Assembly: GCA_907163375.1 (NCBI GenBank)
Contig: CAJQUW010007059.1
Coordinates: forward strand, 186,001 to 250,000
Direction: 5' to 3'
Source: Prostheceraeus crozeri
Lineage: Eukaryota; Platyhelminthes; Polycladida; Euryleptidae
Length of the DNA stretch: 64,000 nt
Numbering within the stretch: position 1 is the stretch's first letter; each line of letters begins with the position of its first letter. Position numbers and translations under genes: made by a program. The notes below the pieces were generated by a model. It worked only from the letters and a program-made list of their open reading frames with translations. It was not told where the DNA came from and made no database searches. Of this stretch, positions 5,032-35,429 are shown one piece after another.

Positions 5032-5610
5032 AAAATGGTCATTTAGGCCCCATTGGCATGTTATTTTAACTACAATTAAGCTTACAGTCAAAACCAAGAA
5101 AATATTGATACAGGAGCTACACAGATGTGCTTCGAAATAGTGCAGAATTGTCGGGGAGTGGTATATGGATTGCTCGAGAATGTCAAAAACAACGATTCTC
5201 GATGTGATTTTAACCGCGGCGAATGAGGTATCAATTGATAAAAAACTGCAAATTTTCTGAAACTCTCAGAAATATCAATGGTATTATATACAAGAAATTG
5301 TAATTGGAAAAGCAAAGGCTTATAGGTAATTCGAAATAGGACGTATTTCATTTACGTGATCATTGTTATTTTTATCTTTCAAGACATGCAACAAAAATGG
5401 CATTGGATAGAGATCTCTATCCAATGCCATTTTTGTTGCATGTCTTGAAAGATAAAAATAACAATGATCACGCAATTCGAATTGCTCACTAGGCCTATAT
5501 CAGGAAATATATACGCTTTTAGCAAAGATGCTGTTTAAGCTTTTTAGCTCTCCGATACAATGTCGGAAGCTACATAATGATATATTTTGTGAAGATCAGT
5601 CACAAATTCC
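5032..5610 (-). repeat. right arm of the long inverted repeat
   Basis: Inverted, diverged copy of 2755-3281. It differs from the left arm mainly by an extra inverted segment that turns its middle into a perfect palindrome (5355-5472). The left arm carries only one version of that segment (around 2871-2940). Confidence 0.8.
5355..5472. repeat. perfect 118-bp palindrome without spacer
   Basis: The two 59-base arms meet at GAGA|TCTC (centre between 5413 and 5414) and are exact reverse complements. Symmetry ends at 5354/5473. Each arm contains the words ttgcatgtcttgaaagat and aacaatgatcacg in one orientation or the other. Because the surrounding repeat has diverged strongly from its partner at 2755-3281 while the arms are identical, the palindrome must be young or maintained, or be an assembly artefact. 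Confidence 0.95.
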
Positions 5611-10060: not shown

Positions 10061-11269
10061 ATGATTTCCAAAATCATTACTACTACATCTACTATCAGTT
10101 CAAACAATCGACTGATCATGATATCCAAGATCATGATGAGAACTTACTTAGGTAAAATCTTGTACAATTTTTCATACAGGATCTGATTCATGCAACGTAC
10201 ATTGAATACAAGGTTACAATTAACTCATAAATTACGTTTTATTACAAATTTGCAGCGTTTTCCCTCATAAACGAGAATGTGATCTAGTCAAAATCAATGC
10301 AATAGAGTACCTCATTTATAAATAGATCGTGAGTCGTATAGCATTGATAGATATTGCTAAAAAATAAAAATTAGAAACGCAATTTCATACCTCCCAAGAT
10401 ACTTTTTCAAGTTTCAGAGCATTTTTACACAGAAGACTATACCACCGCTAGCAACTGTTCCTTTCTCCCTCTTAATCAGAAACAAAACAGCTGTCACAAA
10501 AACATCTGCCGATAACATACGATCGAAATTTGACGATGCACAATCAAAATATCTCCTATTCAAAACAATAAAAGGTTCAAGTTTTTCAGCACCATCACAA
10601 AGTTCGTTCTCTATGCTGAACATCCTTCTGAGTTGCTCATTGATCTCGCGAATCTCTTGAAATTGCGGACAAGTTTCGTCTAAATTATCCAAATTAGTGG
10701 ATAATTTATCTTGCAAATGGCCGGTCAAGGCCCATTTTGTCGAGAATATTCAGGCCCACTCACATAGTAGATAAGACATTAGTGATATATACTGTAGGAT
10801 GTAACGCATTAAAAGCACAACTGCACGCATACATTCATGGCTGATTTTTTGAGTTTGATTTTCGTCATAGACCAAGAATAGTTCACAATAAACTGATCGG
10901 TCGGCACAAAACGGCACTAATCGATCGGTCGATTTAGCACAAACGACAATTTGACCATTAAAGGTTAAACATAGGATACTATATGCTCGAATTCAAAGAC
11001 CTAATACTCACAACGCTGAAATGATCCATGAGTGCGTCCCTATATGACTACGCAAAAAAATAATGGAAAGTATCATACTCCCAAAATCCAATAGACATAT
11101 CGTTAGTCCGATACCTGATACAGTAATGTGACGCATTATGTTCCAACTTCATAGGAGATCGATGCTCGACACTCAAAACCTCGACACACAAACTTACACA
11201 AGCTACTTGGTACTCGATACCCGAAATGATTAAATCAGTCGAACTACCCGCAACTCGATACCAAAAATT
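10061..11269. other. intron sequence with one unassigned open frame
   Basis: Mostly unassigned. A minus-strand open frame at 10414-10728 gives 104 residues with an amphipathic, charged middle (FQEIREINEQLRRMFSIEN). It has no family motif that I know and no paired splice sites that I trust, so it may be chance or a remnant. Around 10890-10940 and 11160-11270 there are loose repeats of cgatcggtcg and ctcgatacc words. Confidence 0.35.
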
Positions 11270-18480: not shown

Positions 18481-20092
18481 CGCCGAATTCCCTCCGTCAC
18501 GAGGATGTATGATAGACTATTGTTATCCTTATGTTGGCAAATGTCCAAATTAAGTTTGCAATTTACTTCTTAGCTATATTTCCTCAGGCATGGAAAGTCC
18601 TTCCTGATCATTCGATCGATCTGGCCGGCTTGGCCCCGCCATGTGGTACATGTTGGAGGTTAGGGGCCGAAGTTTTGCTTTTTGCAGCCAAATGGTTCCT
18701 TCTCGATGATTCCTTAAGTGCCTACACAGCTATAAGAGCTTTCTTCAGTTATGTGTACATCTTCATTGGTAATTTTGGATAGCATCTCAACGGTGACCTT
18801 ATGCTGTATTTTTTTCATGGGACTGCAAAAATAAAAATATTAGCTATACTTTTTCCCCGTCTGACGTTTTAGTTTGTCCAGCTTGTCCATATGCATGTGC
18901 ATTGTGAGTCTTACTCTTTTCAGGATATGGATCACAAAGTTTTTAGTATTAATCATATTTGCGCGTTCCGGACTATACTGATTTCTTCTAAGATTTTCCA
19001 ATAGGACATCTGTTTAACTTTGTATTTCTTCCGTAACTGGATCTTCGCAGTATTCAATTTTGTCGTGTTTTGATTTAACTAATTACAGTATTGGCTTATA
19101 TCAAAAAAAGGCGTCTTGTAACAAAAAAGCTTTTTGTGAAAGCTGCACATTTAGGAAGGCAATCATACGTCCCGATATCAAGAGTCGGTAGGATTGGCTT
19201 TGACTCAATCCTAAAGTCTATCAGCTTCACAAGTGCCATGATTGACTGCGGGACAATCCATGGAAAATAGTAAGAATTACTTGGAGTCAGGATTCAATTC
19301 ATAGAGAAATTTCAGTATTGATGACACTGTATCATCAACAGTTGCGTGTTTACATTCAATTTGGTTCGGTATAATTTCAGTCTATATCTGATAACTAAGT
19401 GACTGATGAATACCGCTCTAGGCATTAATCCAGAACACTATCCCAAGAAAATGATACTTCCATTAGACAGACAGAAAGGAAAATTAGTAGGCATCATAAT
19501 AAATTCTGAAATTTTCATGTATTTTATTTTAAATTTTCTGCGTGGTATTCACGGAACTGATCAACAAATCAAAAATACCACAATTAGGTATTGGATCAGA
19601 CTTCATGTACAACATCTAATACGAATCAGAAGAACTTAATTAAATAGTTCAGATGAGATGTAGGCTGCCAAAATGGAATGCTCTAGAAAATAAGCCGCAA
19701 CTCATCCGAATGAAGTGGAATTTCGGTTATCCGAGCATGCCGATCATCCAGACAGCAGTTCCGAACAGCGATCATTAGAAGAACCCTGAAATTTTCGGAT
19801 TTCTTTCTATCGGTCCTCCATCTTTTCTCTCACAATCTCTGCATAAGACAAGTCTTGTTGGCAGTTACGCAATAGTAAAAAATACCAATACAATCGTGGC
19901 TTTAAATAGACAAGTCAAGTTGGGAAAGCACAAGCACCCATCTGATGAGGTGCATATCAAAGGGACACTGAAAAGTTGAACTGTATCAATTAGCGAAAAA
20001 TGAAAAATGTTTGACTGAAAACAAAGCTCAACAAATTTTCATTTATTTGCTTGATTTAGCTTGATGTAAAGGAAGACTTTTATATTAAAACT
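18481..20092. other. intron sequence; may include the 5' part of the RT element
   Basis: No gene was recognised. The 5' end of the retroelement whose coding part starts near 20093 must lie in the right part of this stretch, but I see no promoter or boundary. Confidence 0.4.
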
Positions 20093-20767
20093 TTGAATAC
20101 CGTGTATCCTTTGGGTTTGAATGATAGACTACTTGGCCAAGGACGTGTTTCTAATGATACTGTAAATAATACGCCTTTTTATTCGTCACCCATTCCGCGA
20201 AAGAGAAGAAGTCATGGTAGAAGACGATCTGGGAGAAAAGTTCGGACATCTTATCCTGATAGCACTGTTGTTTTTGATTCTTTGCGCTGTTTTTTCGATA
20301 AGTGCGATTTTATTGATTTTTATTGTTATTTACGAAAGCTTTCAAGAAGTGTTTTGCGCAATTTGCTCCAGAACTTGTCTAGTGTCGCAGGTGACTTGCG
20401 TATTGTTTTGTCAGCTTTTTTAACTCATGTTTTTAATGATAATAGTAATAACGGTATCGACAAGGATCGTGAAAGGGCTGTAATTGTTGTTTTGTATGAC
20501 TGTAGGAATATCGAGTATTTGAATATTCCGTCTGTTTTTGGCAATAAAAGAATTCGCCGTCTTTTGCCTGACAAGGTCCAAAGTGCACATCCTCCTAGAA
20601 TATTTTACAAACTTGTGAAACCGATATCGTTGCGTATTTGCAATTACAGTAGATTGTTATCGAGTTTGTCGTTGTCCGACATATCTAATATTTCAACTTC
20701 TGCTTGTATTTGTTCTAGTAAACTCCGATTTTATTTACGCTCCTTTCGGTCATATTGTTACTGGTGA
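20093..20767 (+). pseudogene. Penelope-like RT element, N-terminal protein region
   Basis: A 224-residue frame starts with TTG rather than ATG and reads NTVYPLGLNDRLLGQG, then a strongly basic tract KRRSHGRRRSGRK, likely nucleic-acid binding. A long hydrophobic/helical part and LNIPSVFGNKRIRRLLP follow. Near its end the sense passes into the next frame by a one-base shift around 20640-20720: in the second frame DFIYAPFGHIVTGDLN leads straight into the RT. It was therefore probably one continuous protein of roughly 770 residues. The basic motif followed by this RT type is familiar from repeats in cnidarian and other invertebrate genomes. It is not an endonuclease domain I recognise. Confidence 0.65.
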
Positions 20768-20768
20768 T

Positions 20769-22412
20769 TTGAATGTGATAGATGATGTTCATCTTAGGAA
20801 TGTCATGGCACGGGGTGTTAAATTTCGTATTCCTCAATTTTTGCCATGGAATAAGGTTAAAGCTGACTTGGTGACTTGTGTTAAGACCCACGCTGATAAA
20901 ATGTCCAAAGTGTTCAAGATTGATCGTGATCGTTTCGATGATTGGGAGGGTGAAACAATAGACCTCATTTGTAAACGTATAAAAAGACTGAAGTATTGTG
21001 AAAATGTATTCGAAAGAAAGTTTACGTCTATTAGATCACTTGATGAGAGCATTAAATGTATGCATGATCATTTTGTCATAGTGCCCGTCGATAAAGCGGC
21101 TAATAATTTTGCTGTTATATGTAAGAAATTGTATATCAACATCATGTTGGAAGAACTAGGTTTTGATTTAAACAGTTTGGTACCTGTCGGCAATGCAACT
21201 TATTCTGTTTCTTCGGAAGGTAGCAGTGAAATTGTTGACCGTCACTGTTCACTTGTTAAGTCATTTGGTATAAACTGTTCGGATGATTGTAAAAAGTTGC
21301 CTAAATTGTTCTGTATTCCGAAGTTTCATAAGTCACCATATAAGTTTAGATTTATTGCTGGAGCGCGCAAGTGTACGAGTACACAATTGTCAGTTGTTCT
21401 TAATAAGGGTCTTTCCTTAATAAGAGACTTTTTTAAACTTTATTGTGAAGCAATACAGAAGAATAGTGGCTTCCGATGTTTTTGGAGCATTAAGTCTACT
21501 GAAGAATTTTTGAACGTTGCAAATAATAAAAATAATGTCTTTTCAATTCAAGTATTCGATTTTTCTACATTGTACACTAACCTCAATCATGAAGACATAT
21601 GTGCACATTTGTTAAGCTTGCTGGAGCTAGTTTTTAACTCCACGTCGAGAAAATTTCTTTGTGTTGGTTTTAATAAAACTTTTTTCGCTGGTAAAACGTA
21701 CAAAGGTTATCACTGTTTTAGTTTGGAAATGTTGAAGTCCGCAATTAAGTTTGTTATTTCGGAAGTTTTCGTTGTTTTTGGTGGCTTGGCATTCAAGCAG
21801 GTTAGGGGCATTCCTATGGGGGGAAATTGCAGCCCTATGTTAGCTGATTTGTTTTTGTGCCACTGTGAATTCGTTTTTATGAAATCGTTAGTGTCGAACA
21901 AGAAATTCGGATTAGCTAGATTGATGTCTTGCACCACACGTTACATCGATGATATATGTCTTTTCAATTATAAATATTTTGACACTTTGGTGACTAAGAT
22001 TTATCCCGCGGATTTGAAGGCTGAGAGAAATGGGACGGATAACACCTCAGTAGAATATCTCGATGTCAAGCTTAATATTTGTAGTGATGGTTTACATACA
22101 TCAGTTTTTCATAAGGTTGAGCAATTTTGTTTTGATGTTATTGTTTTCACTTTTCCCGACAGTCTTCTTCCTCTTCATATGGGTGCGAATGTCTTTGCCA
22201 GTCAAGTTCTTCGTTACCTTAGGATATGTTCTCATCTGCCGTATGCCATTGTTAAAGCTAAAAGCATGTTTAAAGTTTTTGTGAAACGCGGATATGAAGC
22301 CTGCAAGTTAATCAAATGTATGGAGAGACTGTTGAAAAAGCATTTTTTAGTTTTGTTTAAATTTGGTTTGCAGTCAGCCAGAGAATTTTGTATTTTGTGT
22401 GGCTTCATTTAA
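20769..22412 (+). CDS. Penelope-like reverse transcriptase without visible endonuclease
   Basis: 547 residues, no internal stop. RT blocks with approximate residues: FVIVPVDKAANNF (101), LPKLFCIPKFHKSPYKFRFI (about 178), the first catalytic block VFDFSTLYTNLNHED (263), KQVRGIPMGGNCSPMLADLF (345), RYIDDICLF with both catalytic aspartates (390), then SVEYLDVKLN (about 428). The D-x-S-L/T-Y-T-N block, the P-K-x-H-K block and Y-I/V-D-D agree with Penelope-like RTs rather than LINEs or LTR elements. No GIY-YIG domain follows: the frame stops at 22412, soon after a short helical tail. In the known families such endonuclease-less relatives are thought to use existing DNA ends. The RT core looks intact, but the upstream frameshift makes this copy doubtful. 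True frame entry is upstream of 20769. Confidence 0.8.
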   Translation: MNVIDDVHLRNVMARGVKFRIPQFLPWNKVKADLVTCVKTHADKMSKVFKIDRDRFDDWEGETIDLICKRIKRLKYCENVFERKFTSIRSLDESIKCMHDHFVIVPVDKAANNFAVICKKLYINIMLEELGFDLNSLVPVGNATYSVSSEGSSEIVDRHCSLVKSFGINCSDDCKKLPKLFCIPKFHKSPYKFRFIAGARKCTSTQLSVVLNKGLSLIRDFFKLYCEAIQKNSGFRCFWSIKSTEEFLNVANNKNNVFSIQVFDFSTLYTNLNHEDICAHLLSLLELVFNSTSRKFLCVGFNKTFFAGKTYKGYHCFSLEMLKSAIKFVISEVFVVFGGLAFKQVRGIPMGGNCSPMLADLFLCHCEFVFMKSLVSNKKFGLARLMSCTTRYIDDICLFNYKYFDTLVTKIYPADLKAERNGTDNTSVEYLDVKLNICSDGLHTSVFHKVEQFCFDVIVFTFPDSLLPLHMGANVFASQVLRYLRICSHLPYAIVKAKSMFKVFVKRGYEACKLIKCMERLLKKHFLVLFKFGLQSAREFCILCGFI

Positions 22413-22459
22413 GAGTGTTATCATTGTTAAGTCATGTGTGGGGTCCGCCTTTTTGGCGG

Positions 22460-22522
22460 GGGTCCGCCAGCTAGGGTTTGAGCGTACAAAATGTTAAAGG
22501 ACCCGAAACGCGACCTAGCTGG
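22460..22522 (+). ncRNA. conserved pseudoknot in the 3' region of the RT element
   Basis: Helix A pairs GGGTCC (22460-22465) with GGACCC (22499-22504). Helix B pairs CCAGCTAGG (22467-22475) with CCTAGCTGG (22514-22522). The helices cross, giving an H-type pseudoknot, with one base between the 5' strands and the nine bases GAAACGCGA between the 3' strands. The same layout, with one-base and nine-base linkers (GAAAGGAGA), occurs in the copy at 33804-33859. A small hairpin CCGCC-TTTTT-GGCGG (22445-22459) precedes it, and a conserved TTGCTGATGA follows at 22528-22537. The function is unknown; templates recognised by the RT or a self-cleaving RNA are possible. Confidence 0.65.
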
Positions 22523-22665
22523 TCATTTTGCTGATGAACCCCTTCTATGTTTATTCTTTTCTGGTATGTCTTGTATAAAGATTGTAAATATGTTTTATTG
22601 TTCGGTACGCCATCTAAGTATTATTTCTTTTATATTACCCGATGACCGGCGTGAACGCTTTCAAC

Positions 22666-22681
22666 AGCCCTTTTCAGGGCT
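22666..22681 (+). promoter_or_regulatory. histone-type 3' stem-loop
   Basis: AGCCCT-TTTC-AGGGCT forms a 6-bp stem with a 4-base UUUC loop, flanked by CAAC on the 5' side and ACAC on the 3' side. This is the architecture and loop of the replication-dependent histone mRNA 3' end (6-bp stem, UUUC loop, A-rich 5' flank, ACC-like 3' flank), except that the first pair is A-U. No histone gene is nearby. It ends the RT element, about 254 bases after the stop codon, and no AATAAA lies between. The other copy keeps it (33964-33979). Confidence 0.7.
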
Positions 22682-22700
22682 ACACTTATTAAGCATATAT

Positions 22701-24301
22701 TAACTTTTTATTGTATATTATTGTTCATTCGAAGTGCACTAACCTGACTTTTCCCATAATTTCTTTGTTAGTGTAAAAATTTTAGCTATTGGATCCTGTC
22801 AAGAGTTCTTTTACCTTGACAAATAAATGCGAGAAAATTTGGTAAAAAAACCATTGTTTTGTGACAGAGTTCTTAAATCAAACATTAAATTCACACTATC
22901 ACTTTGTAATGGCCAATTAACGTCAACTGAATTGTACTTGAACATAAGTCAGAGTTGCAATATAATACGTTTTTGAATAGCCTTCTATTCAAGGAATGTG
23001 AGCCATTCAGCAGAGTGAAAGAAGTAGCACTTCAAAAGATTATGGTGACTGATGTTTCTAAAACGTTGTTCTATAACCAACAGAACTCTGATAGTAAAGA
23101 ATGTCGAAAACTCTCGACAGCCAATTTCATTGACAATAATATAATCAACAATAAGTTGATGATAAAGTGATGTATATCAAGTCAATTAGCATGAATATGT
23201 ATTCATTATACTTCTAGTGTCAGTGAGTCATACCAAGAATGACATTATCTACACATCGGTGCGATCAAGTAATTAAAGGTAAATGCTTTTATAAAAGCTG
23301 TTACACAATTCACTATAGATGTTGTATGTTGTGGAATTTAGAGGTATTTCGATTCTGACCATACAATGAAAAAAAATAAATAAAGATAAAGAAACGCATT
23401 ATATTGTGATTGCATGCATAAATGTGAGCTAGATCTTCTGATGATGCCTGCCTGATATTGGGTGAAGTGGTAGTTATTCATGCATATTCTCATCTTTAAC
23501 TGAGATTGCAACTCAACCTTTAGTACCTTAGGACATTTAGTATCTTTAGGACAAAAAAATCAATGTCTCTGGTTTTAGGTCTCACCTCAGCACGCTATCA
23601 GGTGGAAAAAAGAAAATTACATAGGGCATATGATAAGTGCAAAAATTTCAAAAAAAAGTCTGATGACATAGGTTTGTATGTATTGATAGATATTGTCTAG
23701 TTCAATATGTCTATTGATGGTGTGTAATTTGAGGAGCACCAAGCTTCCACAAGTCCATGGACTACTAGATATAGTACTAGTGAACTAGGAGTCCATGACT
23801 AGCTCATCATAAGTCACGGTCACATCCATGCTTCCAAGGGTTGATCGTTTTAGTACCGCTATAGTCATAGCTACAGTCAAAAACATGATCTTCTTCAAGA
23901 CAATGAATTGATATGTGCGAGTGCCTATCACACAGATGTGTATTGATGCTCATGCATTTGACTGGAGCAGTGCTAAATAATCACACAGCTACAGGTGTCT
24001 ATCTGCTCTACAATATATAAAAAATATCTGTGTACCATTTTGAATTTTCAAGAGAACAACTAGAGCAGTCAGACAAGTAAAATTTCGAATGAGGTCAAGA
24101 GAGGTCGCCTTCGACAGTTCAAGTTGTTCCTTCAAAACTCTTCCACGCGCAAATTACTCGAGAAGACAAAGAAAAACTAAGGGAGGTTCACTCAAATGCA
24201 GATTCATTTTGTGTATTCTCTCACAAAAAAACTCACTTTAACATATGAGGATTAGGATTTATGATGTAAATATGAGTATATCAACGTGATTAGTCAATTA
24301 C
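22701..24301. other. intron sequence, nothing recognised
   Basis: No repeat or gene family was recognised. AATAAA occurs at about 22822 (+). A patch of short palindromic words (tagtccatggacta) lies near 23750-23800. Confidence 0.45.
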
Positions 24302-33697: not shown

Positions 33698-33803
33698 ACT
33701 ATGAGTTCTATGCAAAAGATCTATGTATAAGTTCTCTGCTCATATGGTAAATTTGGTCAGTTCTTTTTCAAGTAGTAAATTATTGTGTCACGCATTTTGG
33801 GCG

Positions 33804-33859
33804 TGGGTCCGCCTACTGCTGATCTAGGATGTTGAAGGATCCGAAAGGAGACGCAGGAG
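33804..33859 (+). ncRNA. pseudoknot, second copy
   Basis: Helix A: GGGTCC (33804-33809) with GGATCC (33836-33841), one G-U pair replacing G-C. Helix B: CCTACTGCT (33811-33819) against CGCAGGAGT (33851-33859), six of nine pairs kept. Three of these six (T-A, G-C and C-G in place of A-T, A-T and G-C of the other copy) are compensatory. Linkers are 1 and 9 bases, as in 22460-22522. TTGCTGATGA follows at 33868-33877. Confidence 0.6.
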
Positions 33860-33963
33860 TCAGTCATCTTGCTGATGAGCCCGTGTCTTTTACAAGTATT
33901 ATTTCATTGTCAAGTGAACTTTTAGAGTAACCTTCCGCTTTTGTCAGAGTGAACGCAACAATG

Positions 33964-33979
33964 AGTCATTTTCAGGACT
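33964..33979 (+). promoter_or_regulatory. histone-type 3' stem-loop, second copy (one mismatch)
   Basis: AGTCAT-TTTC-AGGACT: the third pair is T-A where the other copy has C-G (compensatory), the loop UUUC is unchanged, and the fifth pair is broken (A opposite G). The upstream word gtgaacgc is shared with the first copy, which anchors the alignment. Confidence 0.6.
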
Positions 33980-33990
33980 ACTGAAAGTTA

Positions 33991-35429
33991 TTTTCTATGT
34001 GTAAATAATTGTTAAATATTTCGTCGCACGTAATCGGACATGAGCTACATTGTCACTCACAATGCACAGCATTGGCTGGATTACCTCTATCTAAAGCTCA
34101 ATTCAAATTATATATATATATAACTTACATGGATATGATTCATTTAGTAGGGAGATGCCTGAAATAAATATTGGATAAAGACTTAAATATACAAAATTAA
34201 GAAATTAGGTTAGCAGTCAACTACGAGCAATGCCGGAATTCCAGCAAAAACAGAAAAATCTCACATTTTGATTTAACTTGGCTTGAATTATCACGTATGT
34301 TCCCATTGATACTATTGAAACTATGTGCCCCATTGATGCACGTTTTGTTAAAAGGCTTCATAAATGAAGTGTTCATACTCACCAATGAAAATAGCGCTTA
34401 TTATACAGGTCTATTCCTTTTTCAACTGCGGATACATCTCAATAATATATAATTATAAATAACTCTGCCATGGCAACCATTAATTTCAAAATGTCTTAAT
34501 GCCACGAGTTTTTATGATTGACATGGATTTCCCAATTCATTATGCGAATTATTCACTGAGTATCCTACTTTAATAATGATTTGAACATTCTAACCTAGCT
34601 TACGGGAAACAATTCAGATACTATCACAATTCACCGAGACGAGCATGTCACCCAATCGCGATTAGCGCGTCATTCACTTTAATGGCAGACTTGCCTCGCA
34701 GATTAACACAATGACGTAGACGTTTTGAAGCCTCACAAATCGCTCGAGGAGTGACTGGCAACAGCAAAATATCAATGCTTTATTCATGACTTTTTGTTGC
34801 GAGAATTGACAATCAGTATTATACACTTCCGAACTTTGTAGCTGCTAGCATTCTCATAACGACGACTGTGGTCAAAATGTAGCAGTGCATGAAGAAACTG
34901 CTCAGCATAGTACACTTAAAACTGAGCTCAGGTGCGACCCGCAAATTCCGATAGTAGTCATTCATGCTCATAGCATAATCCAATCATAACTCAGTTGGGG
35001 TATGATGATGATTGTGCGATAATCCATTCCGAGAATTCATCAATTCCTTTGTTATTAATGATTACTTCCTTGTTGAGTGCTACGTGTTTTGGACCAAACC
35101 ATTTTCAGATTTAGGTTAGAAAGTGAATATTTCCGAGAACTCCGGTCAAACTAATTTCCAGATGCAAAAATAGTACGTCATTTAACATCGTAAGAGAATT
35201 AATACAATTATTTGATTTCTTTGTTAAGCTTGAATAGGCCTAATTTAGAATAAACACGAATGGCCTTTGGGATGGGCCCCATAAATCGGTGATTCCCAAT
35301 CGACCGAAAAATTGTCCTGTTATTCTTCAGCTACTTTTCAAATTTTTGAGGTTAAATCACAAGGAGTGCATTATTTTTTTCTTTCTTTCAATAACGGTAT
35401 TATATATCGTTCAAGAAATTTTCAATATC
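33991..35429. other. intron sequence, nothing recognised
   Basis: No gene or repeat family was recognised. A short TA run lies at 34111-34122. Confidence 0.45.

Follow-up and report, generated by a model that had tools for sequence, protein, structure and literature searches.

A histone-type 3' stem-loop module shared by Penelope-like elements, other mobile elements and host histone H4 genes in the flatworm Prostheceraeus crozeri

Several unrelated mobile elements in the genome of Prostheceraeus crozeri share one 3' module with the histone messages of their host, a pattern which, read from sequence, suggests that selfish DNA has adopted the histone-message machinery. The module, in which the motif GAACGC is followed by a spacer and a stem-loop, was found near the 3' end of a Penelope-like retroelement in a 64,000-nucleotide stretch of forward-strand DNA (contig CAJQUW010007059.1, positions 186,001 to 250,000, assembly GCA_907163375.1), here called the window, and was searched for throughout the window's own genome (2.05 Gb, 14,165 contigs). 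In histone messages a stem-loop of this kind is bound by SLBP, directs 3' cleavage without polyadenylation and places the message under cell-cycle control. We think it likely that the module gives the element's mRNA a histone-type, SLBP-dependent 3' end and that read-through RNA acts as the template for retrotransposition.

The window carries the stem-loop AGCCCT-TTTC-AGGGCT at 22666–22681 (+ strand), with a 6-bp stem, a UUUC loop and the flanks CAAC (5') and ACAC (3'), exactly as the original prediction described it. A second copy at 33964–33979 (+; AGTCAT-TTTC-AGGACT) was also read correctly: it keeps the loop, has U-A in place of C-G at pair 3 and is broken at pair 5 (A.G). GTGAACGC lies 5' of both stem-loops, at 22651–22658 and 33949–33956 (+). 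Within the window alone, two matches with at most three mismatches are mildly unusual (0.33 expected; 5 of 100 shuffles reach two), and the local fold of a 61-nt stretch around the hairpin is modest (z -1.88; 10 of 200 shuffles as good). Genome-wide, the exact 16-mer of the first stem-loop occurs at 208 places and the reversed-pattern control at none.

The Rfam histone stem-loop model RF00032 matched the window hairpin over its full length (model 1–46 at 22661–22706) with all six pairs and 29.5 bits (E = 2e-6 against a stretch of 551 bases; E = 2.3e-4 for the whole window searched with all Rfam families). At the Rfam gathering cut-off of 34 bits there was no match in the window. Agreement with the Rfam model, which the original prediction proposed to check, was of two kinds: the full-length match stands, and the score falls below the cut-off, as do those of the three host H4 types tested (30.9, 30.7 and 27.6 bits), among which the element lies. 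The predicted histone-type identity is borne out by this score together with the sequence, the structure and the host-specific GAACGC context. With the RF00032 stem-loop the element shares a 6-bp stem, a U-rich 4-nt loop, a G-C second pair, a U-A closing pair and the 3' A. It differs in its A-U first pair, in its place in a retrotransposon 3' UTR 81 nt from the element's end, and in that inspection by eye 3' of the family A stem-loop showed no clear histone downstream element (U7 site). SLBP needs flanking adenines on the stem-loop, two 5' and one 3' (PMC10388802); family A has CAAC before the stem and A after it, host H4 genes have AAAC and A, and family C has AATG with no A-run.

The hairpin belongs to a 5'-truncated copy of the Penelope-like element, family A, which extends over 20058–22762 (+) as delimited by blastn against tandem copies. 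Family A units are spaced 3353–3359 bp apart on C2523, C11526, C13732 and C14116; a full tandem unit measures about 3355 bp, and its 5' ~652 bp are absent from the window copy. At the tandem locus L045, these ~652 bp begin a long open frame with an N-terminal GIY-YIG domain (Pfam E = 3.8e-4; its 21.1 bits fall slightly short of the 22.6-bit cut-off). In the window, an open stretch at 20060–20767 (+) holds the end of the GIY-YIG region and the sequence upstream of the reverse transcriptase (RT), and leaves the RT frame within the overlap 20619–20767. The RT open stretch itself (20619–22412, +; 597 aa, YIDDI motif) matched Pfam RVT_1 weakly, at E = 0.0046 and under the curated cut-off, as did the RT of the neighbouring unit at L045 (E = 0.00094, under cut-off). 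The element had been called endonuclease-less because the window copy is truncated, starting at 20058 inside the endonuclease region; full units carry GIY-YIG, and the proposal that such an RT would find open DNA ends in S phase thus loses its premise.

Craig et al. (2021) reportedly described Naiad/Hydra-type Penelope-like elements with permuted domains and an N-terminal GIY-YIG. By its motif and domain order, family A is a Penelope-like element whose endonuclease precedes the RT, the arrangement of the Naiad/Hydra group, of which it is a candidate member. It has in common with this type the N-terminal GIY-YIG followed by the RT, the tandem units and the 5'-truncated copies; a Cys-rich stretch was seen by eye, and Naiad/Hydra-type elements have a Cys/His finger before GIY-YIG. 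It differs in its histone-type stem-loop and in the result of the Rfam search for a hammerhead ribozyme, which found none at E ≤ 10 in the window or at E ≤ 1 in L045. Hammerheads are common, not universal, in Penelope-like elements. A hammerhead reading of the 3' UTR words CTGATGA and GAAAC was rejected, the two standing in the wrong core order by eye. A block of the 3' UTR at 22468–22545 (+; ...AAAGGACCCGAAACG...GTCATTTTGCTGATGAACCCC; alignments A1 and A3) is common to subfamilies A, C and D; it is strongly conserved, its consensus fold showed almost no covariation, and GGACCCGAAACG and CTGATGARCCC within it resemble words of a hammerhead but stand in the wrong order. An older copy of a related Penelope-like element has its 3' end at 33780–34080 (+; edges approximate, aligned in A1). 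Elsewhere in the window, positions 5352–5475 weakly matched two microRNA families, presumably of plants, one of them on both strands, behaving as a near-perfect palindrome or a MITE would.

The family A element was predicted to end in the stem-loop; its 3' end in fact lies near 22762, after a tail of 81 nt (22682–22762, +). Neither AATAAA nor ATTAAA occurs in its 3' UTR (22413–22762). Poseidon_Ac (PAc), a Penelope-like element studied in vitro, is similar in its tandem copies and in a link between reverse transcription and a stem-loop region, but differs by its hammerhead motif and by an endonuclease at the C-terminus (PMC11167929); in the main text of that paper the term 'histone' is absent.

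Copies of the element were collected with a 20-base pattern from the conserved 3' UTR block, lying outside the stem-loop, which occurs at 465 genome places (control, 0). Among the 100 listed, 58 were of the window type (A) and 42 of other types. The exact stem-loop stood at the usual distance downstream in 31 of the 58 A-type places and not in 27, one of which (C2432) has an exact hairpin further on. When 20 of these 27 were fetched and read by eye, 11 showed a deletion centred on the hairpin, 6 had substitutions only, 2 had larger deletions that removed it and 1 ended before it. Eighteen of the 20 reach 22759–22762, and copies retrieved by similarity likewise run 81 nt past the hairpin; the other ends lie near 22699 (L160) and near 22541 (L167). 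None of the 20 stops at GAACGC. All six pairs were present in 16 of the 40 other-type copies fetched (from the 42 listed) and five pairs in 8; in the remaining 16 the hairpin was changed, deleted or absent.

The subfamilies differ in their hairpins (A, AGCCCT-TTTC-AGGGCT; C, AGTCCT-TTTC-AGGACT; D, AGTCCT-TTTT-AGGACT), which are typically preceded by GTGAACGC, and the ~100 bases before GTGAACGC hardly align. A pattern for the module as such, GAACGC followed after 2–9 nt by AGNNNTTTTNANNNCT, gave 840 genome places (control, 28). In the 100 listed, from which 20 were fetched, six pairs were found in 79; pair 3 was U-A in 64, C-G in 31 and no standard pair in 3. Five of the loci (L109, L110, L112, L113 and L126) form family G, in which an RT C-terminal part upstream of the module shows 46–48% identity to its family A counterpart (E 1e-23 to 8e-28). 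The family G hairpin reads AGTCCT-TTTA-AGGACT, with a TTTC loop in L126. Judged by these alignments, two clearly distinct Penelope-like families, A and G, have retained the module, with a paired change between them. The original prediction depended on other copies having the stem-loop and covarying: other families do have it, with compensatory changes, and many old copies have lost it.

Covariation was measured on 15 chosen representatives, taken from the elements and from host H4 genes, against 500 shuffles and slid versions of the alignment. In this set pairing holds in 96.7% of pair cells, both sides have changed in 12 cells and the covariation score is 0.41; no shuffle was as high on any of these measures, and every slid version was lower on all three. 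Two further measures did not rise above the shuffles, namely the number of pairs changed on both sides (3 of 6; reached by 69 of 500) and the number of further pair types (4; reached by 500 of 500). The families are few, so the number of independent compensatory events is small. Six columns are invariant, among them the second-pair G, the closing pair U-A and the U at the third loop position. We take this G of the second pair to be G7 of the histone hairpin. SLBP Arg181 contacts G7 of the stem-loop (PMC10388802). The host-specific context consists of GAACGC, a spacer of 5–7 nt and the stem-loop, with a 3' A in 13 of the 15 representatives; pair 1 is A-U in the Penelope-like and Tc1 families as against G-C in host H4 genes. 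No AATAAA or ATTAAA was found within 150 nt of the module, or within the available sequence, in the 8 representatives examined.

Histone H4 sequences gave at least 151 genome matches; 150 of 287 candidates were scored and 40 places were fetched (L129–L148, L173–L192). Four of the 40 have a stem-loop, and they represent three types: type 1, GTGCGAACGC-TTAAAC-GGCCCTCTTAAGGGCC-ACCAC; type 2, GAGTGAACGC-CTCAAAC-GGCCCTTCTAAGGGCC-ACCAC; and type 3, GAGTGAACGC-CAAAAAC-GGTCCTTCTAAGGACC-ACCAC (L129 and L130 being of one type, with L132 and L133 the others). The upstream motif is GTGAACGC in two of the three types and GCGAACGC in one. In the H4 genes surveyed, the 3' UTRs of the host itself characteristically have GAACGC 6–7 nt ahead of the stem-loop. 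Two exons in the genome (52.7 and 32.9 bits) encode the RNA-binding domain of an SLBP, and the best PDB match of one of them is a histone RNA hairpin-binding protein.

The other 36 fetched H4 copies have no hairpin, and each of them ends at or shortly before the position that one would occupy; a scan of the 75 nt after the end of the coding sequence found no hairpin in any of them. GAACGC is exact in 30 and has one change in 3 (L142, L143 and L147); the other 3 stop before it (L136, L177 and L187). In the 30 that keep it, the match to the three host 3' UTRs is lost 0–8 nt after GAACGC. At the other end, 5' flanks were available for 16 of the 36, and there the similarity begins ~0–20 nt before the ATG, with no promoter seen by eye. 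The hairpin-less copies thus look like retrocopies of full-length mRNA with a very short 5' UTR. Their ends at GAACGC make it seem that reverse transcription of histone mRNA starts, or that its template ends, just before the stem-loop. Two of the fetched places hold histone copies joined tail to tail at GTGAACGC, H4 and H2A around a (TA)n tract in L131 and H4 and H2B around a short spacer in L188.

The same module occurs in a DNA transposon and in multi-gene elements, which the original prediction did not foresee. Eight loci (L114–L119, L127 and L128) belong to a Tc1/mariner family with the module; the end of the transposase was seen in seven, and in L117 the resemblance to the family is limited to the last ~40 bases before the module. 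In L115, the one locus translated, the module begins one base after the transposase stop codon, and the last open piece matched Pfam DDE_3 at E = 1.9e-5, under the cut-off. The pattern GGNNCTNNTAAGNNCCACCA occurs at 10,672 genome places (control, 2), with GGCTCTCTTAAGGGCCACCA standing at the majority of the 100 that were listed. Both L149 and L150 have a row of several short ORFs, after which come GAACGAACCATC and the stem-loop; L122 belongs with these multi-gene elements. A related multi-gene form, reached through the Rfam model, reads GAACGCCCCAAAC-GGCTCTTTTAAGAGCC in L036, the locus read closely, and some of its relatives are without exact GAACGC. A further form, with 704 places for its pattern (control, 0), follows an ORF ending in DDDEDLDFGDKL in L194 and L196, and in a close variant in L193.

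Family B had been considered Maverick/Polinton-like from a 142-aa ORF; this was dropped, Pfam giving no match to that ORF or to the two other family B ORFs scanned, and family B is described here as a multi-gene element. Just after the stem-loops of L150, positions 1046–1114 and 1522–1590 matched HDV-ribozyme-like Rfam models weakly (26.8 bits; cut-off, 44), which is probably chance. Two scans of viral contigs found no relatives outside the host genome. In the open-licence literature, as covered by titles and the starts of abstracts, we found no description of a histone-type ending of Penelope-like or other transposable elements, which is weak evidence of novelty. Since the module marks host H4 genes and also follows a DNA transposon gene, it is best read, at the level of sequence, as a signal for a host factor.

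The hairpin zone of family A was read by eye in 100 listed of 198 places. It was intact in 74, substituted in 14 and had one extra T in 1; the remaining 11 carried a deletion of 5–10 nt (window equivalent 22672–22681). Ten of the 11 deletions start precisely where the 5' arm ends and take out the loop together with 1, 2, 3 or 6 bases of the 3' arm. Tc1 elements do not move by reverse transcription, and in the Tc1 family, whose hairpin is of the same type, the same design gave no such deletion among 37 places (one 1-nt loss, one 3-nt gain, 13 substituted; Fisher p = 0.036 against family A). The multi-gene element showed no deletion in 100 listed of 5,277 places, with five substituted. Taken against the Tc1 family and the multi-gene element together, the excess in family A reaches p = 5.4e-5, in a comparison between families that differ in age and in letters. 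An identical 5-nt loop deletion is shared by 5 of the 100 listed family A places, and the five may not all be independent, despite the tail variant of L165, which differs from those of L154, L155 and L168. The identical deletions could partly reflect an active source that lacks the loop.

These deletions, which look as if made during reverse transcription, also speak for a reading in which the hairpin is a template-recognition element for the element's own RT and its likeness to histone stem-loops is incidental. Proteins of stringent LINEs recognise their own 3' tail RNA and, as in family A, a conserved hairpin lies near the 3' end of the retrotransposon (PMC4176376); for one Penelope-like RT, the starting point is within an AC-rich stem-loop (PMC11167929). 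We nevertheless regard this reading as unlikely. The family A hairpin, unlike a stringent LINE tail, also occurs in H4 genes of the host and in DNA elements. Recognition by the RT of the element does not explain a module that also follows the Tc1/mariner transposase and the ORFs of multi-gene elements, and the starting point of family A copies lies 81 nt 3' of the hairpin.

The reading that we prefer is a histone-type mRNA end combined with an uncut template. Under it, the module in the element's 3' UTR (GTGAACGC, a spacer of 5–7 nt, a 6-bp stem, a U-rich 4-nt loop and mostly a 3' A) would be bound in the RNA by SLBP, and the histone processing machinery would cut a few nucleotides after the stem. 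Each unit of a tandem array could in this way yield a translatable, non-polyadenylated mRNA, which would be made, translated and destroyed like a histone mRNA, with a bias to S phase. A cut at the stem-loop would also part one tandem unit from the next, a task credited to the hammerhead in other Penelope-like elements. Copies run on to 22759–22762, so the template would have to be uncut RNA; cutting at the hairpin is not needed for the template's 3' end, 81 nt on, and would remove it. Read-through RNA that escapes the cut and reaches the true 3' end may thus be what the RT copies. The frequency of loop deletions in the copies makes it probable that the hairpin stays folded, or has protein bound to it, during copying of the RNA.

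It is quite unlikely, in our view, that GAACGC and the stem-loop form a general host 3'-end signal of many non-histone genes, recognised by a factor other than SLBP. Thousands of module-type copies exist (the 10,672 and 704 places above), most of them outside histone genes as far as read, and the module follows an ORF in most loci examined. Yet every module copy identified so far belongs to a repeated element or an H4 gene, and none was traced to a non-histone gene of the host; L195 has the module without a histone match. SLBP is present in the genome, and even under a general signal the ending would still be histone-like. We consider it very unlikely that the module stems from a single capture out of a histone mRNA, through template jumping for instance, and has since been carried passively without function. 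H4 mRNAs do appear to have been reverse-transcribed often in this genome, and the hairpin is lost from many element copies, but passive carriage is hard to reconcile with the persistence of the module, paired changes included, in families that share 46–48% RT identity and differ in their surrounding 3' UTRs, and it does not explain the presence of the module in Tc1/mariner and multi-gene elements. A chance hairpin, although the two matches within the window alone are only marginally unusual, is refuted by the genome-wide controls (208 exact copies against 0; 840 module places against 28) and has a negligible probability.

A histone-type, SLBP-dependent end with a read-through template leaves room for a wider proposal, to which we give slightly less than even weight. 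In it, unrelated elements would have adopted the complete histone module, tying their expression to S phase and to SLBP, and the complex of hairpin and protein would set the start of reverse transcription on histone mRNAs. H4 copies that stop at the stem-loop offer a natural assay of RT block or start on a histone mRNA. Elements with such an ending would form a large exception to the existing rule on the histone-type 3' end. Poly(A) RNA-seq would miss them, they would depend on SLBP and perhaps be tied to S phase, and the module may be a way for elements to time their expression to replication. It also makes testable how unit-length mRNAs could arise from tandem Penelope-like transcripts without a hammerhead.
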